Assembly (NCBI GenBank): GCA_027575805.1
Contig: JANBPU010000066.1
Coordinates: 1 to 64,000 of the forward strand
Direction of reading: 5' to 3'
Length of the DNA: 64,000 bases
From: Mycoemilia scoparia
Taxonomy: Eukaryota; Kickxellomycota; Kickxellomycetes; Kickxellales; Kickxellaceae
Shown here piece after piece: positions 1 through 36,696 of this stretch. The notes below the pieces were generated by a model. The model did not search any database. It saw only the letters and a program-made list of their open reading frames with translations, and was not told the DNA's origin. The position numbers and the translations under genes are program-made. The number at the start of each line of letters is the position of its first letter. Positions within the stretch are counted from its first letter, which is position 1.

Positions 1-22
1 CACACACACACACACACACACA
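1..22. repeat. (CA)n microsatellite
   Basis: The window opens inside an uninterrupted CA dinucleotide tract of at least 22 bases; its true left edge lies outside the window. Confidence 0.95.
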
Positions 23-1780
23 AAAGCAACATAGACTAGTAAAATGAACGACTCATATTGGTATTACTAATACTTATAGTATTGTTGATATTATCATTCT
101 CACTCTGTGTATTCAGCCTATACATCTGAATATCTATTTGTCTGTCTGCTAATGTAAGGTAAAGCTCTGGCATGCATAATCAAATAGCACCTTCAACCAT
201 TATATTTAGATACATAGAAAATGCACATATATATGTATGTAAGTACAAATTTAGAACACAATTAGGAGGGGCGGTGTGGTAGTGACAGTAATGTAATAGT
301 AAGGGGTACTACTATTGTAAATTGGAATATGTTTAGTCATACAGCATCATCATAATCATCACCACTAACAACTACAGCCAGAATAAGAACCATTCTTCTA
401 TTTATACTTGCTTGTCTAAACTTGCGTGGAGGCGCACAAGTGAGTGAGAGTGAGAGAGTTGTATGTAGATGTTATAGAAAACAATGGTATTAAACTGGTT
501 TTAGTTGGTAACAATGTGAAAAAGAATTCAAGATGATGACATTACTTACATATGTCTGTATGTTTTTATGTGCTGGTAGCCAATATGACACTCTGGATAT
601 ATTTGATAAGACGCAAACCAAGTCTTTAATATTTTCTAGACTTGGTACATTGTCATGTAATCCGACCTTGTTTTATGATAATGCGAATCTGTCTGTGGAT
701 GTGTCAGCAGGTTTGTATTATTGTTGTTGTTATCTTTGCTGTCATTTACATTTTTGGAATTGCAAAATAGTGCAATGATAATAATAATGCTGAGATTTAG
801 TTGATCTCCCAAGAGTAATTTTTAAGCAGCTTAGTTTGGGAGAGTATATACAAGTATCGTTGATTTGATGATTAGCTACAACAGACACACAGCCAACTGT
901 ATTGATTGACATTATGGAGTACCTTTGGTGTAATATTATTTTATGGCAAACCACATTGATCACCATTGGCACCATTTCCGATAGGATAAACCGAAAATAA
1001 CAATATCCTTGATAATGTCATTCTAGAATCTAAATGTATTGGGGTCAAACATTTATATGTAAAATCCATGGGAAACTATTTTTGAAGGGTAGCTATTTGC
1101 TAATAAGTGGCGATCACTCGTTTGACTGTGGCTGTTCTTATAAACACTGAGTGGCCACCAAAGGAACCCTTCAAAATTTACCAGCCAAATGATGGCCACC
1201 ACCACCACCACAACCAGCATCATCATCGTTGTCATCATCATCATTGTTACTTTGGACTTTCGGCATTTTAAGCTAAATACGAATTTATTGGTTTGCTGAG
1301 TTGGGGTTTGCCTAATGACTAATAGTTTACAAGTTCTTTACAGGTAGTTTTAAAGCATTCTTTATATTTCGCTTTATTTTGTCCCGGTTTTGTATGCTAC
1401 GCTTTAGCCATGTAGCTCGGCATATATAACATCCTTTTAAAGTCATTTAGGATGTATGACCTTCTGTAGACATGCCCAGGCAATTCCTATACGCTGACCC
1501 AAACATCTGTGGCTTTTTACTAGGGCTGGGCGATGGTGTGTGGCATTTCACCCCGATTTTGCTGTCTTGGCCCGGACTGGTTAGATTTTCTAGAGACAAC
1601 TTGGCATGTATAAATAGATATATGGCCAGGTTTGCATTTGTGCTCAGTCTTCCATGGGAATGTTGGGGTTAGAATCTGTAAGAGAGAATAGCATAAGCGT
1701 ATATACAGCAGCCGAATAAGTGCAAATTTGTTCGATTTGGTGCATTCATCCCTGACGTTGAGCATGCAGGTGTATACATA
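23..1780. other. Gene-free AT-rich flank
   Basis: No reading frame here looks like a conserved protein, and I see no tRNA or rRNA. Only short, low-complexity frames occur. It contains one diverged copy of the short TIR element (1069-1183, listed separately) and ends at the left inverted arm. Confidence 0.6.
1069..1183. repeat. Short TIR element (MITE-like), diverged copy
   Basis: The left end reads TGGGAAACTATTTTTGAAGG and the right end CCCTTCAAAATTTACCA, imperfect inverted repeats of the family described at 1781-6073. The interior keeps the family core (ATTTGCTAATAAGTGG; GTGGCCACCAAAGG). No clean 2-base duplication is visible, so this is probably an old copy. Confidence 0.7.
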
Positions 1781-1880
1781 TGGGGGAGGGGTTATTTTTG
1801 AAGGGCTAGTCACTCATTTGGCTGTTATTGCGCCTATAATCATTGACCTCCAAAAGACGCCCTTCAAAAATTATTACCCA
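1781..1880. repeat. Short TIR element, arm unit A
   Basis: Starts TGGGGGAGGGGTTATTTTTG and ends CCTTCAAAAATTATTACCCA. It is flanked by TA on both sides and abuts unit B through the palindrome CCCATATGGG. Confidence 0.85.
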
Positions 1881-1882
1881 TA

Positions 1883-2016
1883 TGGGTAATAATTTTTGAA
1901 AGGCTAAATGCAGATGTTGCATGGTGAGGCATTGGTCAATGAAAATATATGGCAACTAGTATGCAAGTTGAAACTGGCCTACTAGTAGAACTTAGTCCTT
2001 CAAAAATTATTGCCCA
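1883..2016. repeat. Short TIR element, arm unit B
   Basis: The ends are TGGGTAATAATTTTTGAAAG and CCTTCAAAAATTATTGCCCA, near-perfect inverted repeats. The interior differs from the common core, so this is a second subtype sharing only the termini. Confidence 0.8.
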
Positions 2017-2018
2017 TA

Positions 2019-2797
2019 TGGGTAAAATATGTCAGCAACTGCCTATTTTGGGTGATCCCAGTACGCTGCAGCATCTCAGCCTGGCACATTTATGCCTCTT
2101 TCTCTCTACTTAGACGATTGTCTGTGGGAATGTTATTCAGTCTGCAACAAGGTTATAGAAATGCGGTTGTATTAGTAATAACCGCCTTGGAAGCAGTAGC
2201 AAAGCAGGGCTTGAGAATATCTATGCATAAGATTGTAGTAATTGCAGCAGCAGCAGCAGCACCAATGTGAACATGGCTTGATCTAGAAAAACTCAAAGCA
2301 AAAAATCTCAGATAAGCGAATACTAGCTAGGCCAACAAGTAGCACTTGGTACATAATCGTCTTATTCAGGGATTGGCTACTGCCATTCAAAGAATGGCCT
2401 GGCACCAAGAATACTTGGAAAAATAGTATTATTGCTAATAGAGAAGATTCTAAACAGGTTTCTATGAGAGCCAATAAATCAATCAATCAAATAAATAAAA
2501 TAAAAATGAATAAAGGCAACATTATTGTGATGCAAGCATCGATTATTCTGGTCTATTAGTCAGTTTGCTTTGTAGCATATATGCGACAGCGCATTCCAGC
2601 AGGCGCATTGTATGTGTGATCAGTGCTATAGCAACAGCAGCCTAGCATGATGGCGATATGGTTAAAATCCACAAGACAAGGCCTTAGGCAAAATGGGTCT
2701 CCAGGAATTGCATATGGATTTGCTCATGATTGGGCCAAAATGTGATGAGGACCCATTTCTGCCCATTTCACGCCTGATCATTAGTGAAATCTTCCCA
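2019..2797. repeat. Arm unit C, a 779-base non-coding repeat module
   Basis: Bounded by TGGGTAAAATAT and ATCTTCCCA and flanked by TA on both sides, like the short elements, but longer and without the TTTTTGAAGG arms. It includes a short (CAG)n tract near 2250. The same module lies inverted at 5057-5835, and a diverged piece is at 24276-24408, so it exists independently of this locus. No transposase motif was found in any frame. Confidence 0.7.
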
Positions 2798-2799
2798 TA

Positions 2800-2917
2800 T
2801 GGGCAATAATTTTGGAAGGGTACCTTTTGGTGGTAGCCAGCGATTATAGGGGAAATCACAGCCAAATGTGTGATCATCATTTGTTAGTAAATGGTCACTC
2901 TTCAAAAATAGCTACCA
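2800..2917. repeat. Short TIR element, arm unit D
   Basis: The ends are TGGGCAATAATTTTGGAAGG and TTCAAAAATAGCTACCA. The core (GGTGGTAGCCAGCGATTATAG; AGCCAAATG; TTTGTTAGTAAATGG) is the common one. It forms the inner end of the left arm. Confidence 0.8.
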
Positions 2918-3223
2918 ATTTGATGGTGATCAAACAAAAACACCAAGTTGAGTCTATAGCATTGGCTCCAATATTTTAATTCAATCACCACAGAATATGG
3001 TTTATTGATTTTCTGGAGATCAGTCCGATTACAGGACTAAATTTTTTGTTCTCCCATTCATCATCTTCATCATCATTATCACCACAACTACTATCTATCT
3101 TTTTTTTAACAAAAATTCAAAAAGTAACCTTTTCTGCATCTTTTTGTGTATATATTTACATATTTACGGTTATTTATACCTATATTTATATTTTCCCGAA
3201 AAAGATATAACCTACCACACAGA
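2918..3223. other. Upstream region of ETT1
   Basis: 306 bases lie between the left arm and the ETT1 start. They contain a pyrimidine-rich stretch near 3090-3110 and presumably the promoter and 5' UTR. No TATA box stands out. Confidence 0.5.
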
Positions 3224-4745
3224 ATGTCGGATAAAACCACAAAAAAGAGACCTATGGGGTTAAAGAAAAGTCGTGCCGCCAAGGCAGCAACAACAGGGAG
3301 TCAAAACAAGAGGCCTAAAGATGAACAAAGTCAAGTCATTAATAATGCCACACCTGCAGGTATGTCAGTTGATGAAACTACAGAAGATGGTGGTAGTCAA
3401 CTGAATGAAGACGAAGAAACCATAGTGCTTGAAGCCCCTGAAGTTGAAGAAGAGGATAATGATGGGCAGATTGGAGAGATTTGGGGAATATACCAAAAAG
3501 CCATCAAAGCAATGCAAAATCCTGTCGGCATTAGTAGTAAACAAGAAGGTGGAGGAGGAGATGAGGATCTGGCAATCAAGTATTTACGAGGAACTATTCA
3601 TGAATGTGATTATATACTAAAATCCAAATATAATTCCTTAAAACAAAAAGCGGGATCTGCTGAAGGTAAAGAAGGGGAAGGAGAAGTTGAGTTGGTACCA
3701 AAGTTCTATTATGTCTACGGAATGGCATTGTATACGCTATCCGAACTAACCAACCCTGAAGATGCTAAAGAATATTTCGAGTTGAGTATAATGAGATTGG
3801 AACAAGCTCGTGACAAGATTTTGGAAAGGTCTGCTGGTGATGGCGGTAGGGATGGTGGATTATTGAAGTCTGTGTATTTGGGATTGGGTAAATCTACATT
3901 GAGTAGAGCAAAATTTGTTGATTTTGATAAAGAAAAGGAGGCTGAGAAGAAGGTCGTCGAGTTAGTTAACAAATCGCTTGAATATTTTGACAAGGCGCTT
4001 GACACTGAGACTAATAAGGAAGAACTTGTCAAGGAAAGTTTGATTGTGACTGATTTGGTTTTCACTTTTGTTTATTTGTTTGTGGATATTGTTGAGTTGC
4101 AATTGGCTGTACGTTGGGGAATCAAGAAGCTCGAGAGTATACAGAATGGAGAAGGTAAATTTAATTCCAAGATATTCATTTATATGATGTGGAGTATTGC
4201 ACATATACATATGATTTTTTATTTATTCTTGCGAGGTTTTGGTGTATATTGTTTTTAGGCCAAAATAAGAAAGCAGAGATTGAATTTTCTCTTGGAAATG
4301 CTCATTGGATCTTGGCTTCGCATTATTTGGATCAAATTGATGAAGAAACTGGTGAAGTGCCAGAAAGAAATACTGTTGAAAAGCTACTCACTCAGGGTTA
4401 GTAGTAGTATTAGAAACCTAGAATTATATATATGGCTAATGTTTAACATGATTGCCCCAGCTAAATGTTTGAAAATACCAATCTCCTTGTATAGCTCGAG
4501 ATCATTTGAAGAAAGCTCGCGAGAACGAAGAAGAAAAGAAGACTGATGCCTCAGAATCTCTTTATGATATCTTGATTTTGCTTTCAGAAGTTTATATCAA
4601 CTTGGGAAATATCCAGCCAGAAGAAGAAAATCAGGAAGCAGAGTACGCAAAGGCCACTGAGGTATTACTTGTTGCCAAAAAGAATTTACCAAGTGGACAG
4701 GAGTTTCCTGAACATCTTCAAGCCTTTATTGACGAATCCAATTAA
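3224..4745 (+). CDS. ETT1: Enhancer of translation termination 1 (ETT1-like), 3 exons
   Basis: Exons are 3224-4154, 4259-4396 and 4495-4745; the introns (104 and 98 bases) are GT-AG and the joined frame is open. The N-terminus after the chosen ATG carries KKRPMGLKKSRAAK, matching the family's basic RPxGL nuclear motif. An acidic linker follows, then a TPR-like helical region (YLRGTIHECDYIL; YYVYGMALYTLSEL; FSLGNAHWILASHYL). Yeast ETT1 is a nuclear protein needed for efficient stop-codon recognition and readthrough control. An upstream in-frame ATG at 3146 would add a hydrophobic leader foreign to the family, so 3224 is preferred. The gene is single-copy here and lies exactly between two inverted ~1.14-kb repeats. 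Confidence 0.85.
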
Positions 4746-4935
4746 AGAGGAGTTCATATCATCACTTGTATTGGGGTTTATTACTCTGTTGCCACTTTTT
4801 TGATGGACTTTCTCTATGGCACCATGTTGTTGAACTAACCAAATAAATAAATAAAACTTGAAATGCTTTTAGGAAATTCAGGATGATAATCAAAATATAA
4901 TAAAAGGGCTGTGTATTTACAATAGGCATCAAAAA

Positions 4936-6073
4936 TGGGTAGCTATTTTTGAAGGGCAATCATTTACTAACAAATGATGATCACATATTTGGCTGTGATT
5001 TCCCCTATAATCGCTGGCTACCACCAAAAGGTACCCTTCCAAAATTATTGCCCATATGGGAAGATTTCACTAATGATCAGGCGTGAAATGGGCAGAAATG
5101 GGTCCTCATCACATTTTGGCCCAATCATGAGCAAATCCATATGCAATTCCTGGAGACCCATTTTGCCTAAGGCTTTGTCTTGTGGATTTTAACCATATCG
5201 CTATCATGCTAGGCTGCTGTTGCTATAGCACTGATCACACATACAATGCGCCTGCTGGAATGCGCTGTCGCATATATGCTACAAAGCAAACTGACTAATA
5301 GACCAGAATAATCGATGCTTGCATCACAATAATGTTGCCTTTATTCATTTTTATTTTATTTATTTGATTGATTGATTTATTGGCTCTCATAGAAACCTGT
5401 TTAGAATCTTCTCTATTAGCAATAATACTATTTTTCCAAGTATTCTTGGTGCCAGGCCATTCTTTGAATGGCAGTAGCCAATCCCTGAATAAGACGATTA
5501 TGTACCAAGTGCTACTTGTTGGCCTAGTTAGTATTCGCTTATCTGAGATTTTTTGCTTTGAGTTTTTCTAGATCAAGCCATGTTCACATTGGTGCTGCTG
5601 CTGCTGCTGCAATTACTACAATCCTATGCATAGATATTCTCAAGCCCTGCTTTGCTACTGCTTCCAAGGCGGTTATTACTAATACAACCGCATTTCTATA
5701 ACCTTGTTGCAGACTGAATAACATTCCCACAGTCAATCGTCTAAGTAGAGAGAAAGAGGCATAAATGTGCCAGGCTGAGATGCTGCAGCGTACTGGGATC
5801 ACCCAAAATAGGCAGTTGCTGACATATTTTACCCATATGGGCAATAATTTTTGAAGGACTAAGTTCTACTAGTAGGCCAGTTTCAACTTGCATACTAGTT
5901 GCCATATATTTTCATTGACCAATGCCTCACCATGCAACATCTGCATTTAGCCTTTCAAAAATAACTACCCATATGGGTAATAATTTTTGAAGGGCGTCTT
6001 TTGGAGGTCAATGATTATAGGCGCAATAACAGCCAAATGAGTGATTAGCCCTTCAAAAATAACCCCTCCCCCA
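4936..6073 (-). repeat. Right arm of the large inverted repeat around ETT1
   Basis: Reverse complement of 1781-2917. Units in order are D' 4936-5054, C' 5057-5835, B' 5838-5971 and A' 5974-6073, again joined by TA. The outer end is followed by TA and the inner end is preceded by AA. Differences from the left arm are single substitutions, for example in the stretches near 5175, 5201, 5527 and 5732. Confidence 0.9.
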
Positions 6074-6558
6074 TATTGATGGAGTTAATCGAGATGCCAT
6101 ATTGCTTATTATTCACCTGAAAGTCTCGTGTATAAGAGTCAGCCATTTGGTTAATCAATAATCACCTGCCGAAGCATGACCAACATGCTGCGCTTGGTCA
6201 TCTATTCCCGGCATGGTCCACTATAGTAAACATCCAAATTGAATTTCTATTGTGGTATAGGAACATTCGGAAAAATTCATTTATAGCCACCCTAACCCCA
6301 TTAATGTATGTACGATTATTTACAATCATTATTGGTACATCTTTTTGTTTGTGTGTTTATTGATGATTACCATCATATTTTATTGACTGCGAGCGGGTGA
6401 GTATGTGTGTGGATCTAAAGTAATACTAGGTAAATGCAAACAGGCCAGGAATGAATTAATCACCATCATCAGGGGGCCAGGCAGTGAATCATTTTTCTTT
6501 CGATGATATGCCATTATTATCAGATGACCAAACTTCTATTATGCCGCATATCAGGGGG
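6074..6558. other. Intergenic, nothing recognised
   Basis: Between the right arm and the 3' end of the RsfS-domain gene. I see no conserved frame, RNA gene or TIR element. Confidence 0.5.
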
Positions 6559-7620
6559 TCAACGGGAAAGAATCGTGGCTTCGGTGTTTTCTGAGGTTAG
6601 GCTTTCAATACATTTTTTGGTCCACAGTGATTCGAGGTCATACTTTTGCCGCGCCTCAGGGGTCATAACATGGATGAAGGCATATCCAAGGTCTATTACA
6701 ACCCAATCCTGACTATCGCGGCCATCAACACTAAACATAAACTGGGATGGGTCTTGGTTCTTCATTCTCATCCATGATTTGATCATCTTGAGCAAATTGT
6801 CTACCAGCGCATGCATATGCCTGGTGCTGTTGGATTCAGCTATTAACATGTTGTCTGTAATTTCGCACAGTTCCGATACATCCAGGAGTTTGATATCTTT
6901 GGCATGGTCTGATTCGAGTTGCTCTACACACAGATCTAGCAGGTTTTTGACCTCGAGTTGGTTATTTTTGTCAAGCTGAAACTGTTCATGATCGTTGGTT
7001 TGTAGGTTTCTTTGAGCTAGTCGCTTCCATAATGGAACAAATGGTTGTTGGTTATCGATATTGCCAGTGTTTTGTAGATGGTTGTTTTCAAAGTCTGGAT
7101 CAACAAACCACGAATCATCGCCACTGCTGCTACTGCTTAGTTCCTCGCTATAGTCGTGGTCTTTGTATTCGTTGTCTAGTGATGATACACCATCTCTGTT
7201 TTCGGTGTTATTATTATTAATATCTAAGCTTTCATTTTCGGGATATAGTCCTGGAATATAGTCCTTGCTGAGGTATTCATCTAATGGCGCTTCTTCAATG
7301 TCTTCTTCTTCAATGATCTCGTTATCTTTTTCTCTATCTTCCTTTTGATTTGTTTTCTCATGTGTTTCTTTTTCTTCATTTTGTGTATTATTTGTGTTTG
7401 CGTTATTTCCGGAAGCAGTAGAACTAGTATCTGTGGAGTACATATTGAATGGATGCGTGAAGCCGATTTTATACATGTGCTGTCTATTACTTGTTATTGG
7501 AATTCTTGGTTTTACAATTCTTCTACCTGAAATTTGACTTTCTGAGGCGATGAATTTCAAGCCATTAGCCGCTAAATTTCGACTTGGTGTTGCGATTTGA
7601 CTGAAAATACGACTCAACAT
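6559..7620 (-). CDS. Mitochondrial ribosomal silencing factor (RsfS/MALSU1-type) with acidic linker
   Basis: A single exon of 353 residues. The start is the ATG of MLSRIFSQIATPSRN, an Arg/Ser-rich mitochondrial presequence; the frame further upstream has only a TTG. Residues ~75-220 are acidic and Asn-rich (EEEDIEEAPLDEY) and probably disordered. Residues ~226-335 form the RsfS/DUF143 domain: LLDVSELCEITDNMLIAES, STRHMHALVDNL and DWVVIDLGYAFIHVMTPEAR, ending YDLESLW. The family binds uL14 of the large ribosomal subunit and blocks premature subunit joining; in mitochondria it assists large-subunit assembly. In many ascomycetes this domain is fused into ATP25; here it stands alone at the C-terminus. 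Confident in the domain, less so in the exact role. Confidence 0.85.
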   Translation of the reverse strand: MLSRIFSQIATPSRNLAANGLKFIASESQISGRRIVKPRIPITSNRQHMYKIGFTHPFNMYSTDTSSTASGNNANTNNTQNEEKETHEKTNQKEDREKDNEIIEEEDIEEAPLDEYLSKDYIPGLYPENESLDINNNNTENRDGVSSLDNEYKDHDYSEELSSSSSGDDSWFVDPDFENNHLQNTGNIDNQQPFVPLWKRLAQRNLQTNDHEQFQLDKNNQLEVKNLLDLCVEQLESDHAKDIKLLDVSELCEITDNMLIAESNSTRHMHALVDNLLKMIKSWMRMKNQDPSQFMFSVDGRDSQDWVVIDLGYAFIHVMTPEARQKYDLESLWTKKCIESLTSENTEATILSR

Positions 7621-9455
7621 GGCAACCAGGGTGATAATGCGCAAGGGGAGGGGCGTGTATGTATATGTATTAATAAATTATTGATAAAAGTAAGTTGGAA
7701 AGGGCTGCAAGATTTCTCTTTCGTTTTTGTCGATCTGATCGAATTTTAAGGTTGCAGTCAGCTGCACTTGATTAAGAATAAAATCATGATCAATTATGCC
7801 AAGCAAGTATTCACATGATTACTTCCTCTCGATCCTCAAAGGGGTTTGGTAATTATAGCATCGTTTTAGGAAACAAATTGAAAGGTGATATTTCATAATT
7901 ATCGTTCGTATATAATTAAAATAGCTAAAATAGAACTAACCTTCAATGAATTGTTTGTTAAAGAACAATGCTCTGCGGTATTAATACTGCCTAAATATTA
8001 GTTGTCAAATGTTAAACTAAAATGATATATCTAGCATTGCAAAAGAGAAATAATATACAATTATTAAGCTAGGAATACACGTTAGTTGAAGGTTAAGAAT
8101 CTTCATGGTCTTTGTAATGTATGATTAAGCTGGGCTTGCATAACATTTATGGATAGCATCCCCGAAGAATTGATAGTTACTATTGTCAAAATTCACGCTC
8201 AAAGATTATGAATAACCGCCACTGGCATCTGGAAAATTTGCAACACCAACAGCAACAGCATAACCTCCATAACCAGCACAAATGCTCCCCATCTAGTAGT
8301 CCTGAACCACGGTGTCTTCCTTTGGTGCCTGTAAGAGGCGCGAAATATTAAAAAGAGATAAAGGCGGTGAGAAAGGACGGTAATGACAGCGGGTATCTTG
8401 AGCTACAGCATCTTTTTGAATATGAAAGAGTTTACTCTAAAAGGATACCAGGATAATCTCTCCAATACTATCCTAAAATATACGGCTTATGGGCCAAATT
8501 TGCTGGAGGCATAGCAGTAGAATTAGGTGCACTTTCGATGGGGATCCTGCCATACAATAAAAAATATATGTGGTTGAATAGTTTACAAAATATAGAGATA
8601 TCTCTGTGAGTATTTATACTTGTTTTTCAGACGTATCCCACTATGCTCTCCTAAATTTTATTTCAGAGTTTGAATTCCAAACAGAGTATGTTCGCGAAAA
8701 AACGGGTGGCTTATATGTTCGAGTCATTTTTAAATTGTTCTGTTGTTTAGTATACCATGGGAATGTAGTTGAAGAAATTATTGGAAAAAAAATAACAAGA
8801 TGTTCAATTCTAAATCAATGTCTCAAATTATCAAATTTCACTACCGAGCAGCCATACAATGATTGTGGGTGGATCCCGGAAAAATATCTTAAAAATTTGG
8901 CAAATAATTTTTAATGATGACAAAAGTTCTGATGTATGTTAAGAGCTTCTTCAGGGATGGTGTGAATCTGACTTTTCTCTTGAATGTATGTGCTGTTATT
9001 GTTATTATTGGCTGTTATATTGTGATTATTATTTGATTCTTACTAGCTATTGCTTATTATTAATATTTCTTTTTTATATACATTTTTAATATTTGGGGGG
9101 GGGGGGGCTTTTATTACTAATAACTTGTAAAATAGAGCCCACATATATTGGTAGAGCAGATGAAGAGAGACGAATATAACAAAATATGAGTAATAATGTT
9201 GCGAATACTCAGTATGTTATCTAAATGGTTGAATCCAGAAATTATTAAGCAGATCGCCGTTCCAACGCTAAGCCAAACTATCTGGTATCGATCTGAAAAC
9301 CATAAATGATAGAAAAAACCTATATTAACATTTCATCTGTTGTAGCATATAAAGTTCAATTTGATAAACAAGGGCTTCAATAATCAATCCAGTGTAATTG
9401 TTTATTATCAAAAAAAGTCCAGCAAACACAAGCGAAAGAAAACCAAGCTCGCGAT
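7621..9455. other. Long intergenic stretch with possible relic at 8400-8910
   Basis: No intact gene recognised. An open frame at 8606-8914 begins on GTG, not ATG, and matches no family I know. Upstream (~8400-8600) one frame reads protein-like (YYPKIYGLWAKFAGGIAVEL) but contains a stop. It may be a decayed gene or repeat. A run of 13 G occurs at 9095-9107. Confidence 0.4.
9095..9107. repeat. G13 homopolymer
   Basis: Thirteen consecutive G residues in otherwise AT-rich DNA; the length may be affected by sequencing error. Confidence 0.8.
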
Positions 9456-10089: not shown

Positions 10090-10367
10090 TATTTGTATAT
10101 ACTTTTGATAGTGGTTAAATGTTAGTTGGGTTTTATTTTGTTAGGCTTGTTTATTAACTTTCGATTTAGAAGTTAAAGAAATGAAAAAAGCATTTACTTG
10201 GTTATGGGATTATAATATAAAATTTTAATTATAAATAAATAAATACATTTTTCGTAGTGTACATGCCATGGTTTTTATTTTAAACCATAGATGTTGGAAA
10301 ACAAGAAAGTTTAAACATTACAAATAAGAGATCTGCTACAATTAAATGTCATTTTTTTAATTTTTGA

Positions 10368-10483
10368 ATTGCGACCATACAAACGAGAAAATGTCGGTTC
10401 CCGTCCGATCACCGTAAACAAGCTCGTTATGGCCAGGAGAGTACTGCTGTGGGGAACCAAGCGGGAACACCTGGTGTTGCAAT
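10368..10483 (+). rRNA. 5S ribosomal RNA, copy 1
   Basis: About 116 nt. Diagnostic 5S segments are present: GCGACCATAC at the 5' end, GGTTCCCGTCCGATCACCG (loop B/helix III), GAGAGTACTG, GGGAACACCTGG and the terminal GTTGCAAT, which pairs with the 5' ATTGCGAC. A T7 run follows directly. Compared with copy 2 (36398-36513) there are two internal substitutions. It is an isolated gene, not in an rDNA array. Confidence 0.9.
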
Positions 10484-10487
10484 TTGC

Positions 10488-10494
10488 TTTTTTT
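10488..10494 (+). terminator. Pol III terminator of 5S copy 1
   Basis: Seven consecutive T residues begin five bases after the 5S 3' end, the standard RNA polymerase III stop. Confidence 0.85.
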
Positions 10495-16272: not shown

Positions 16273-16614
16273 ATTAGTATTCGAGGTATGGAGGTGAATT
16301 AAAGGGAAGAAATAGGAAGAAATAATACAGGAAAGGGAAACTTTTGAAATCAAGAGCAGAGTGAAGCATACACGGTTAACAATTTTTATGAAATATCCAA
16401 ATGTGGCTGCGAGGATTACTAATGACGATGATGTCCTGATTTTAGGCTACAGATCGATTTTATAATTTTATGATTGTCCGAATTTTAGTACAGGTTAATG
16501 AATCGGATATCCTATTATGACCCATCCTGGCTATTAACAAAAGTTCCTTCCTATAGCACTACTTGCTCTACCTGTCACTCACTTTCATTGACCTACCAAC
16601 ATATCAGGTTCATA
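16273..16614. other. NBP35 upstream region
   Basis: Presumed promoter of NBP35 on the minus strand; no clear TATA box. Nothing else seen. Confidence 0.4.
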
Positions 16615-16733
16615 TGTATCATGATTTTTGAAAGGTACATTTTGGTGGTAGCCAACGGTTGTAGGGGCAATCGCAGCCAAATGAGCGATCACCATTTGTT
16701 AGTAGATGGTTGCCCTTCAAAAATAATCCCCCA
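16615..16733. repeat. Short TIR element (MITE-like)
   Basis: The left end TGTATCATGATTTTTGAAAG is degraded; the right end is CCTTCAAAAATAATCCCCCA. TA is on both sides and the core AGCCAAATGAGCGATCACC is intact. Confidence 0.8.
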
Positions 16734-28828: not shown

Positions 28829-31800
28829 CTAAGGATCTAGTTCCAATACTTTGTTAATGGTATTTGATAAATCTTTGTTGATTCTGGCATCTCTCTTTGT
28901 CTCCCATGCCTTTTTAAGAGCACTTTTGACCTTGTCTATTTCCTGCTGCATGTTGAAATATGAAAGCCCTGTAAGCAGACTAATTTGTTGAGGCGTCCAA
29001 GCAGAATTGAAAGTGTTGCAGAACGAAGCTGTTTGTGGATCAAAATCCGGGTCACGGAAATTGACATTTTTCAACATTGGGAAATACAAAACTTGAATCG
29101 GAATAATCGGTGAATCGTCATGGTCATGGTTTTGATGGCTGCTTCCTTCTTTGTTTGCATCACCATGGTGGTCATCATCACCAAATTTACAAGTCAGTGG
29201 AGATTCGCTTACTGGTTCGGAAAAAACTATACACCTGGTTTTGTTGCTTTCCAATTCAATTTCACATTTCCATGCTTGTGAGCTTATGCGCTCAACACTT
29301 TCGCAAAATCCGCCATCATCAGCTCCCAATGGGGCGTATGGGTTTTTTGGATCACTTCTAGGGATATGATTCTTCTTTGACCATGGTCTGATTCCCCAAG
29401 GCCATCTTTTTATGTTGTGCTGTTGCGCCCATAGCTCGGCACGCTCAAACCATGCTGTATCGTCTATATCTGCACTTGAATCCAAACATATTATAACATC
29501 TACGTTTCGGTCTTCACGTAAAAGTGGAGCAAATGGTATGTTATTGGTAATGCCAGCATCCATAAGCGATAGTAGTGGATCAGATTCCAGTGTTGATTCT
29601 GGGATATCATTATCTTTGGATCCCTCTTTAATGGATTTGTTTTTAGTTTGGTTGTCAGAACTATTACCAAGAATATTATTCAAAACTTTATTCTTTAATG
29701 ATGGGGATGACGATCTGGCTTCTTGATCCTCCTCTGACTGAGACCATTGATAGAATGGGCTAAATATCGTATACGGCGGTATTGGATGCATTATTGATAC
29801 ATCTTGGTCATATTTCGTCAACATATCCCTGAGGAAGTTTTTGGTAAATCCCGGAAGGGAGGGAAATATTTCCTCTATCATTGACCTAACACTAGCACAG
29901 AATGCTGATCCAACTGTGCCCATTATGCTGCCAAAATGTGTTTCGCCTATAGGAAGCCAGCTTTTTCCATTCTTCAATGGTCTTCCCAGTGCCCAAGTTG
30001 GGATCCAGACATTATCATCAATGCTGCCAACTTCATAAGGTGTTAGCTCAAACCATTGGTAGTAGTGGCGGGGCCTTTTACTATTACCATCTGCTCCTTC
30101 AGTACTGCAAATTTGGTCTTGTTGTTGCTGATTTATTGATTTTGAAAAAGGAGACCAGCAGCTTAGTGACTGCCACCATGTTTTAGGAACTACTTGAGGG
30201 TCAGTCTTAACATTTTCTTCTTCGGATATTAGCTCAACAACCTTTTTATCTTTTGAAGCCTCTCCTTGATCCCCCTTTAGTTTGACTATTTCGTGCCGAA
30301 CTGCAGTGTATATGGGCATAGGGTTTCGACCACCTTTGATAGTATTTGATTGATTGCTGAGCTTTGCCCATTTTGGATCTAACCAATATTGATTCTTTGA
30401 TGTAGAGTTTGAGTCCAACGAACCGTGATCTTGTGGACCATGTTGTTGCATAATAAGGCGACTATACAACATTGCACCATATACAGATACTATCGAGTCA
30501 GGGAGCATGGGAAGGTCCATCATTACTTTTTTCCATTTCTCGCCTATATCGGCTGTAAATTCAGGAACGTCTTGATCCGAATCATCAAGGCTTTCCTTAG
30601 CCCAGGCCGTAATGGATGTATAATATTGATTGAACTTTTCCAAAACTCCAGCGTTTTTTGGATCATTTGAAGCAGCTTCGTTATCGCCATTTTCAGAAGC
30701 CACCTTATCTTTCTGGGCATTATCAACTGTTGATCCAGTAACACCTTGATCTTGGTCATTAAGATTTTCCATAGACAAAGGCGTAATAGATGCATAATAT
30801 CTATCAATCCTTTCCCACACTCCAATGTCTTTTGGGTCATTTGAAGCAGCTTTTTCGGCGTCAGCATAATTCGCTTTATTCCTTATCGCCAGGGTGATTT
30901 TGTCCATGACAATTCGAAATACAATATCTGACAATACACTCCGGGCAGCCGTCGCATTACACTTTATTACATCAATTATTGTTGTAAAGCTATAGACATC
31001 TGTGCTCATGACATTCATTAGGTTACTAATGACTCGTTCTGGATCGCCATCAGCGTATGTATTGAGTCCACCTAGTGCCCAGCATGACCCTGACACTCCA
31101 GCGACATAAGAGACGCATTGGTACAGCCCATGATCTTTTGCCGAACTGATATATCCCAAAGTTGACAGCATGGCTCTAAATCCACCACCTGTGGCAGCAA
31201 TAGAAATAGTTGGAATATCTCTCACATCAATCTCCGATTCCGGCACACCGATGAATTTTGCAAAGTGTGGCTTTATTTCTTTTTTCCTAGCTATTATGAA
31301 TTCTTGCTCATCTTTACATAACTCTGATCCAACTCTGACGTTTGCTACCTCGGTGATTTTTGGGTGAAGCTCTCTACTTTGATGTTCTTTCATGCTCACT
31401 TGAACCCAATCTGATGTAATGACTCTTTCTAGTATCGATTCCCACATATTTTCCCACAGGCCGGTTAGTGACTAAACAAAATATAGAAACAGGACGCTAT
31501 ATAACTAATTCCCATTGTATATATTGCTATAAAGCTTTGAAAGTGTTAGTAGAGAGAGAGAGGGCTGATGATGTCTGAACTTACTACGCTCTGGGAGTTT
31601 GAAGAAGACATTTTTTCTTTTATTACTTCTGTGTTAATAGCTTCCTTGCTAGCCCCCTTGCTCTCTGGCTCTACACAAATAAAGCATTAACTATTGTTAT
31701 ACATGTCCTTTTTGACAAATTAATCGCATATATATGTATATATATATATGGTCACAGTTTCTTACCTTTTTGTTGACTGTAAAGTCTTTTTGATATCGAA

Positions 31801-35867: not shown

Positions 35868-36397
35868 ATGATATGATAAGTTCTCCACCAAAAGGGAACA
35901 GACAGATATTCTCGTAGTACATTCCCTGCAAATTGGCCTCTATAATCCATACATTTTAGCTGGAGTCTCAATGATGATTGGCTTGATATTCAAACGAATA
36001 TCCTAGTATCACCCTTTTAGAGGAGACTATTCTGCCATATACCAAACTGATATTGCTAAAGCTCAATCTTTGTACCATTCTTTCTATCTCTCTATTCATT
36101 AGTATTGCATTGTGACATATCTTTCTTTCCCTCACCTGCCCACCCAATATACCCAACTCCTCTCTATTTCAATTTTATTCTAGTTTTTAACCGTTTTGTT
36201 TTGCTTTACACTTCATACCCCCCCCTTTAAAATGTGTCAATTATTGAGTTAATTCCGTAGTTCAGTATATTAAAACCATCATTTATACTTGTATAGTTGT
36301 TTTAAATCGCAGTTATATAAATTGACTCCTGGTTCCTAAAGTATATTAATATGTATTTGGCTTGATTCCTCTTGAAATTGGCGTCAAAAAAATGGAA
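35868..36397. other. Intergenic, nothing recognised
   Basis: AT-rich spacer between the unknown gene and the second 5S gene. A T-rich/C-rich stretch lies at 36080-36230. No gene seen. Confidence 0.5.
36386..36392 (-). terminator. Pol III terminator of 5S copy 2
   Basis: Seven A on the plus strand, that is T7 on the transcribed sense, start five bases beyond the 5S 3' end. Confidence 0.85.
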
Positions 36398-36513
36398 GTT
36401 GCAACACCAGGTGTTCCCGCTTGGTCCCCCACAGCAGTACTCTCCTGGCCATAACGAGCTTGGTTACGGTGATCGGACGGGAACCGACATTTTCTCGTTT
36501 GTATGGTCGCAAT
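36398..36513 (-). rRNA. 5S ribosomal RNA, copy 2
   Basis: Minus-strand copy of the 116-nt 5S sequence at 10368-10483. The 5' GCGACCATAC, GGTTCCCGTCCGATCACCG, GAGAGTACTG and GGGAACACCTGG segments are identical. It differs at GTAACCAAGC (copy 1 GTAAACAAGC), GGGGGACC (copy 1 GGGGAACC) and the last base. The terminal helix is intact (ATTGCGAC with GTTGCAAC), and a T7 run follows. Confidence 0.9.
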
Positions 36514-36696
36514 TCAGAAAATAAAAAAACGATCTTTAACTATAGTTAAATACTTTGTATTCAATCAGTGATAAGCCAGATACTTTAACCATCTGTATAC
36601 CTGTGCAAAGCATGTTTATAGCGAGCTAATTCAAAATATTTGTTTCGATGTTTAGAGACCTGGACTACAAATTACTATACAAACATGTAATCTATT

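Follow-up and report, generated by a model that had tools for sequence, protein, structure and literature searches.

Tc1/mariner-type miniature inverted-repeat transposable elements (MITEs) duplicate a TA target upon insertion, Foldback elements are multi-copy and have 9 bp target duplications, and Pack-type and other gene-capturing DNA elements carry captured gene copies with the parent gene located elsewhere. Three further systems are closely related to the locus described here: Galileo, a multi-copy family, duplicates 7 bp of its target and has break-promoting termini that reach 1.2 kb, and hybrid insertion is expected to leave identical copies where ectopic recombination would leave chimeric ones (PMC2775673); for the Drosophila subobscura inversion O7, inverted duplications measuring 59 and about 540 bp are described together with a 2,026-bp microinversion and spacer inversion between inverted repeats (PMC7584159); and template switching occurs at microhomologies of 2–5 bp (PMC2621351). 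Here we describe a 64,000-nucleotide stretch of the genome of the fungus Mycoemilia scoparia, which is a kickxellomycete rather than a yeast (assembly GCA_027575805.1, contig JANBPU010000066.1, positions 1–64,000; the window) in which the single-copy gene ETT1 lies between two inverted arms of 1.1 kb that are 99% identical. With a probability of roughly 0.5, the locus arose by local inverted duplication of one nest of MITEs, with breaks at MITE tips (break repair or template switching), with or without inversion of ETT1, and has been partly homogenised since. The weights given to this and to competing readings are judgements and not computed values.

The component parts of the arms resemble Tc1/mariner-type MITEs in their size (about 100–140 bp), short terminal inverted repeats, TA duplication and ATAT target, but each arm as a whole is a nest that includes unique DNA. 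As in Pack-type elements a gene is enclosed by inverted repeats, but here the genome search found ETT1 only once. Long inverted arms around a middle piece (up to about 1.2 kb there) and a propensity to form hairpins are shared with Galileo and Foldback, elements that are associated with inversions (PMC2775673); unlike these, the arm pair is unique in the assembly and the middle piece is a cellular gene. The description of O7 likewise has a short interval between inverted copies of otherwise single-copy DNA and palindromic DNA near the breaks, with duplications of tens of bases to about half a kb compared to 1.1 kb here, but in M. scoparia the borders coincide with MITE tips and an inversion is only possible (PMC7584159). 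Among the papers listed for MITEs in yeasts, Kickxellomycotina, composite and Foldback elements, and template switching, none gives an account of this locus. It belongs to the kinds described for the three systems above, and nothing about it demands a new one.

Organization of the inverted arms

The left arm (1781–2917, forward strand, 1137 bp) is the reverse complement of 4936–6073 (reverse strand, 1138 bp), and ETT1 is the one gene between them. Each arm is a nest of four MITEs joined via shared TAs around a 638-bp core, and the order in the left arm, from the outside inwards, is MITE1, TA, MITE2, TA, core, TA, MITE4, TA, MITE3. The components are:

1781–1880, forward strand: MITE1; outer tip TGGGGGAGGGG, unusual and common to both arms; mirror copy 5974–6073
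1859–1904: MITE1/MITE2 junction palindrome; 38 nt perfect in the left arm, 14 nt perfect in the right arm
1877–1886: MITE1/MITE2 junction sequence CCCATATGGG
1883–2016, forward strand: MITE2, 134 bp; best copy elsewhere, among matches listed, 97% at C419:2531–2675; mirror copy 5838–5971
2019–2656, forward strand: core; mirror copy 5198–5835
2659–2797, forward strand: MITE4, a different small repeat family, with TA at both sides here; mirror copy 5057–5195
2800–2917, forward strand: MITE3, the tip of which forms the inner arm end; mirror copy 4936–5054
3224–4745 (about), forward strand: ETT1 (enhancer of translation termination 1 / Nro1 family), three exons and two introns, single copy in the assembly

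The arm pair is the longest inverted pair in the window (1144 nt at 99% in a repeat search), and searching the 21.16-Mb assembly with the arm gives 99% identity across arm positions 1–1136. Beyond the last aligned bases the arms diverge at both ends, and the flanks outside are unrelated except for short matches. The second-longest inverted pair in the window is only 159 nt, ruling out a chance origin of the arms. This shorter pair (10336–10494 and 36387–36545) is 92% identical and its copies are 26 kb apart. A control self-comparison of 200 kb (contig C1, 1–200000) using blastn contains three inverted pairs of at least 200 nt, spaced 47 to 70 kb, the best of which is 536 nt at 95%; none of the pairs in those 200 kb is close and comparable to the arms. 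A search of the assembly did not find the whole arm again, and there is thus a single long-arm pair rather than a multi-copy family with repetitive long termini of the Foldback or Galileo type. There are no tandem arrays in the arms at a score of 50.

A query with the core (2030–2670) matches just the two arms in the assembly (two of two candidates). Because the core is present only there, the arm is duplicated local DNA, and its interpretation as a transposon family was rejected. Otherwise single-copy DNA therefore stands inverted at both ends of the ETT1 interval, as in inverted duplications associated with repair or inversion. The arm coordinates and ~99% identity proposed in the original prediction agree with the repeat search, global alignment and genome search, and the borders read as it gave them, with TA outside on both sides and AT (left) and AA (right) inside. 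Its further claim that free-standing members are diverged holds for the matches of at least 100 bases between arm pieces and other contigs (69–91% identity among the 40 of 2077 candidates that were scored), but fails for one among these, the 97% match to MITE2.

The TA-duplicating MITE family

Parts of the arms have the properties of TA-type MITEs, being short and multi-copy with terminal inverted repeats and a TA duplication. The tip form TGGGnAnnnATTTTTGAAGGG is common, with variations, to MITE1, MITE2 and MITE3; both outer tips have four bases more than this family form. Tips were surveyed in 301 kb, made up of the window minus 1771–6100, the C1 stretch of 200 kb, and 15 loci that were mostly chosen for holding such repeats, and 72 of the 90 that are close to the family form have TA outside, in support of the TA borders that the original prediction gave for the family. 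A precedes this TA (position −3) in 71 of the 72, and C precedes that (−4) in 36. These preferences indicate that the target is ATAT and often CATATG, and because two tips together with their TA recreate CATATG, the MITEs can nest into one another. The sequence CCCATATGGG followed by a family tip has 56 exact-pattern matches in the assembly, six of which belong to the two arms (each junction that has both tips complete contributes two matches), and abutting MITEs are also present at other loci (C442, C409). The TA-duplicating family with tip TGGGnAnnnATTTTTGAAGGG and ATAT target is large and genome-wide; it is a putative Tc1/mariner-type family, assigned from the TA and target alone. At one locus (L044, C409:86900–88300), a composite of MITE4 and a second MITE is present in two direct copies of 361 bp that are 78% identical and 734 bp apart, and composite MITE pairs may spread or duplicate together.

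The region containing the outer MITEs (1770–2050) folds as DNA far better than shuffled sequences (z −6.2), a result expected of nested inverted repeats that does not discriminate between explanations for the locus.

Junctions of the arms

Each arm has an outer and an inner junction:

1779–1780: TA beyond the left outer tip, in the context ACATA, the preferred form
2918–2926: left inner flank ATTTGATGG (reverse complement CCATCAAAT)
4927–4935: right inner flank CATCAAAAA
6074–6075: TA beyond the right outer tip, in the context TATTGATGG

On the outside, each arm ends exactly at a MITE tip bordered by TA, as expected of a target duplication, although the TA is two bases only and is expected anyway at the end representing the original MITE1 insertion. 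The arms agree fully in the outer tip TGGGGGAGGGG and over their first 28 bases; formation of the outer ends by homologous recombination between two different MITE copies was considered and rejected on this ground.

Read toward the tip, the flanks are GTGTATACATA (left outer), ATCACCATCAAAT (left inner), AATAGGCATCAAAAA (right inner) and TTAACTCCATCAATA (right outer). In both inner flanks CATCAAA lies beside the same MITE tip (left CATCAAAT, right CATCAAAAA), and CATCAA is beside the tip in three of the four flanks (both inner and the right outer) and within 14 bases of none of the 90 other tips. The flanks were compared using equal 12-base windows with the two junction bases omitted, with 79 tips not abutting another MITE as controls; the left inner and right inner flanks share six bases, the left inner and right outer seven, and the right inner and right outer six. 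Six bases are shared by 2.1% of control tip pairs and seven by 0.7%; when 100,000 quartets were drawn at random from the other tips, 74 contained three pairs sharing at least six. With the junction bases kept, the three pairs share 7, 7 and 6 bases, the control values are 4.2% and 1.2%, and the number of quartets is 525 per 100,000; the probabilities for matches of 6–7 bases are in either case post hoc. The inner tips resemble junctions left by MITE insertion, perhaps including a few flanking bases in common, which later decayed.

Five joins between flanks are implied by the possible histories of the locus. Joining the reversed left inner flank to the right outer flank gives an inverted repeat of seven, joining the right inner to the right outer gives six, and the others give 3, 2 and 1; random joins give seven in 0.17% and six in 0.61%. 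Both of the palindromic joins treat the left arm as older and remove the right arm, which therefore seems to have been placed in a split small palindrome, a break-prone site. One of the two requires inversion of ETT1 and the other does not.

Differences between the arms

Global alignment of the arms reveals 14 differences, at left-arm positions 1809, 1889, 1891, 2121, 2230, 2326, 2652, 2680, 2868, 2894, 2896, 2897, 2899 and 2917, the last being the very tip. Comparison with MITE copies elsewhere, where it is informative, shows changes in both arms. At 1889/1891, five of six loci with MITE2 copies (L003–L006, L008) have the TAGTTA of the right arm, and the sixth (L007) has TGATTA. The TAATAA of the left arm, a two-base change, turns the MITE1/MITE2 junction into a perfect palindrome of 38 nt as opposed to 14, and this would be a sign of hairpin-templated repair. 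At 2894–2897, 57 of 67 genome pattern matches read TGACC as does the left arm (a pattern to which the left arm itself does not conform), and the right arm reads CAATC.

Among the same 67 matches, CAA replaces TGA near the tip only in the right-arm MITE3 (4936–5054) and in a MITE at 16.7 kb of the window (16611–16725); a local exchange between MITE copies is possible.

The differences are unevenly distributed, with five of the 14 in the inner 24 bases (binomial 7e-6), or three of 11 if neighbours are merged as single events (1.4e-3). This clustering fits either an interior homogenised by conversion or an error-prone junction, and is proof of neither. Mutation similar to repeat-induced point mutation was considered from the list of differences and not adopted.

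Transposase genes

DDE_3 transposase domains are encoded at 15 places in the genome, 13 of them above the cut-off, and there is one match to DDE_1. Three of the 15 DDE_3 loci were read (L041–L043) and none has the tips of these MITEs; the inverted ends at L042 and L043 are different ones, and no inverted ends were apparent at L041. Within the window, no transposase domain was identified at E 0.001 in the 20 open reading frames scanned of the 33 with at least 120 amino acids. Locus L043 (C74, match 7850–8293) has a DDE_3 frame without stops between 267-nt inverted repeats (91%) with ends ATACACTAGCATACAAAAG, and is a candidate full Tc1/mariner-type element. Locus L041 (C356:99524–102961) has 274-bp direct repeats, 99.6% identical, at both ends around the DDE_3 frame.

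ETT1 and flanking sequences

The first exon of ETT1 (309 amino acids) is 100% identical to H4219_003088 of M. scoparia and scores 24.5 bits against Pfam Nro1, just under the curated cut-off of 26.5; the UniRef name of the protein is Enhancer of translation termination. The assembly has one copy each of the ETT1 interval and the right flank, and the left flank has matches elsewhere only via one MITE, located within 1051–1197 of the flank. Synteny is informed by Coemansia thaxteri, the only species giving both ETT1 (GGI04_002332) and the neighbouring RsfS (GGI04_002473), whose locus tags are 141 apart, but this species is too distant to decide the question. The window includes a 143-nt direct duplication (30536–30678 and 30710–30852, 73%) within the PLA2_B frame (28829–31447). 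ARAGORN in bacterial mode predicts no tRNA in the window, and positions 1–8000 contain no Rfam match at gathering threshold.

Origin of the locus

A duplication history would start with a MITE nest around unique intergenic DNA on one side of ETT1, probably the left. A single local rearrangement would then have placed an inverted copy of the nest on the opposite side of the gene; the ETT1 interval may or may not have been inverted in the process, and ETT1 would have been a bystander. The mechanism would be of the staggered-break or template-switch class, leaving inverted duplications at both ends of an interval. MITE tips are palindromic (CCATATGG-type), have short mutual homology, and are plausible sites of fork stalling where breaks could occur; subsequently gene conversion could pass sequence between the arms, and the arms could flip the gene. 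The anatomy, the copy numbers, the TA rule of the family and CATCAA at three of the four junctions are observed, and the copied arm, the type of break, any inversion and later conversion are what we infer. If the copied stretch extended a few bases past MITE3, or if joining used microhomology, the likeness of both inner flanks is expected, and a homogenised interior or an error-prone junction would similarly account for the uneven differences. Several points weigh against the duplication. Both outer boundaries fall exactly at a MITE tip followed by TA in the favoured context (ATA|), a position that transposition would produce outright and that a random break would seldom strike. The flank matches are post hoc, and the joins fail to tell inversion from no inversion, being about equally palindromic (seven versus six). 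No relative without the duplication has been seen, gene conversion is deduced from few differences, several of them adjacent, and the duplication does not account for the loss or alteration of bases at the left inner tip. Repair models account for the inner flanks and leave the outer ends to coincidence; under transposition models the outer ends follow, and the inner ones require both coincidence and decay.

In one transposition model, ETT1 and the inverted duplication surrounding it, bounded on the outside by MITE1 tips, moved as a single 4.3-kb gene-carrying unit through a TA-specific (Tc1/mariner-type) transposase acting in trans. This accounts for exact and identical MITE1 tips with TA outside, on the left in the preferred CATA form, requires no TA at the interior ends, and can draw on the DDE_3-type genes (15 matches, 13 over the cut-off); the separation of the RsfS and ETT1 tags in C. 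thaxteri is a weak hint in the same direction, since ancestral adjacency is thus not established. It requires an inverted duplication beforehand, one extra event, and leaves the four extra bases of both outer tips and CATCAA at three flanks unexplained; no second copy of the unit, arm or core was found in the assembly, and the DDE_3 loci read (three of 15) have other inverted ends (L042, L043) or none (L041). The original prediction favoured such a unit and took the inner AT and AA ends as pointing to it, an argument that is not supported, since both inner flanks are CATCAAA at a MITE tip and not arbitrary interior sequence. The unit itself lost ground, with no second whole arm or core found in the assembly, single-copy ETT1 and right flank, and none of these tips at the DDE_3 loci read, and is unlikely; the alternatives offered alongside it, a template switch and homogenisation, fit as well or better. 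It is slightly more doubtful still that the two TA-sharing MITE nests act as the termini of a 4.3-kb element that carries the sole ETT1 and moves or flips via a transposase in trans or recombination, which would place a housekeeping gene within a non-autonomous element.

All four arm ends being MITE tips, the arm could also be a composite from MITE1 tip to MITE3 tip, with the ends of sister copies inserting as a hybrid element at a nearby TA and inverting the piece between. The reconstructed target CCATCAAA-TA-TTGATGG has the A-TA-T form of the family (A at −3 in 71 of 72) and a 7-bp inverted repeat, and identical inverted copies around an inversion are the expectation for hybrid insertion in the Galileo account (PMC2775673). 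This is quite unlikely given that, in arms of young sequence, the left inner tip has lost bases and its TA, that coincidence would have to explain the CATCAA of the right inner flank, that no composite arm was found elsewhere in the assembly, and that an active transposase is required. Two insertions of the 1137-bp arm as a composite MITE, in opposite orientations on either side of ETT1, draw on the same arm ends and on the abutting MITEs at C442 and C409, and without the right arm the flanks give CATCAAA(A/T)A-TTGATGG, a 6-bp palindromic A-TA-T site if one base changed. Both inner TAs are absent at ~1% arm divergence, however, when 72 of 90 tips, even in diverged copies, have kept theirs; the unique core is found nowhere else in the assembly, and the left inner flank matches too, making this improbable. 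A false inverted copy generated in assembly is conceivable in that the contig begins 1.78 kb leftward at a CA microsatellite and the assembly has 466 contigs, but it is highly improbable considering the 14 differences between the copies, which in a chimera would be identical, some of these differences matching family variants on one side only, and the four flanks, which all differ.

Implications

The junctions of this locus are readable to the base. If the duplication reading is true, this early-diverging fungus offers a small and clean example of how an inverted duplication around a conserved cellular gene was seeded by a cluster of MITEs. If ETT1 and its arms instead moved as a single unit, ordinary MITEs can mobilise a whole cellular gene without an element-coded gene. 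In either case, the presence of 1.1-kb inverted arms with 99% identity 2 kb apart predicts that the orientation of ETT1 can flip within the lineage.

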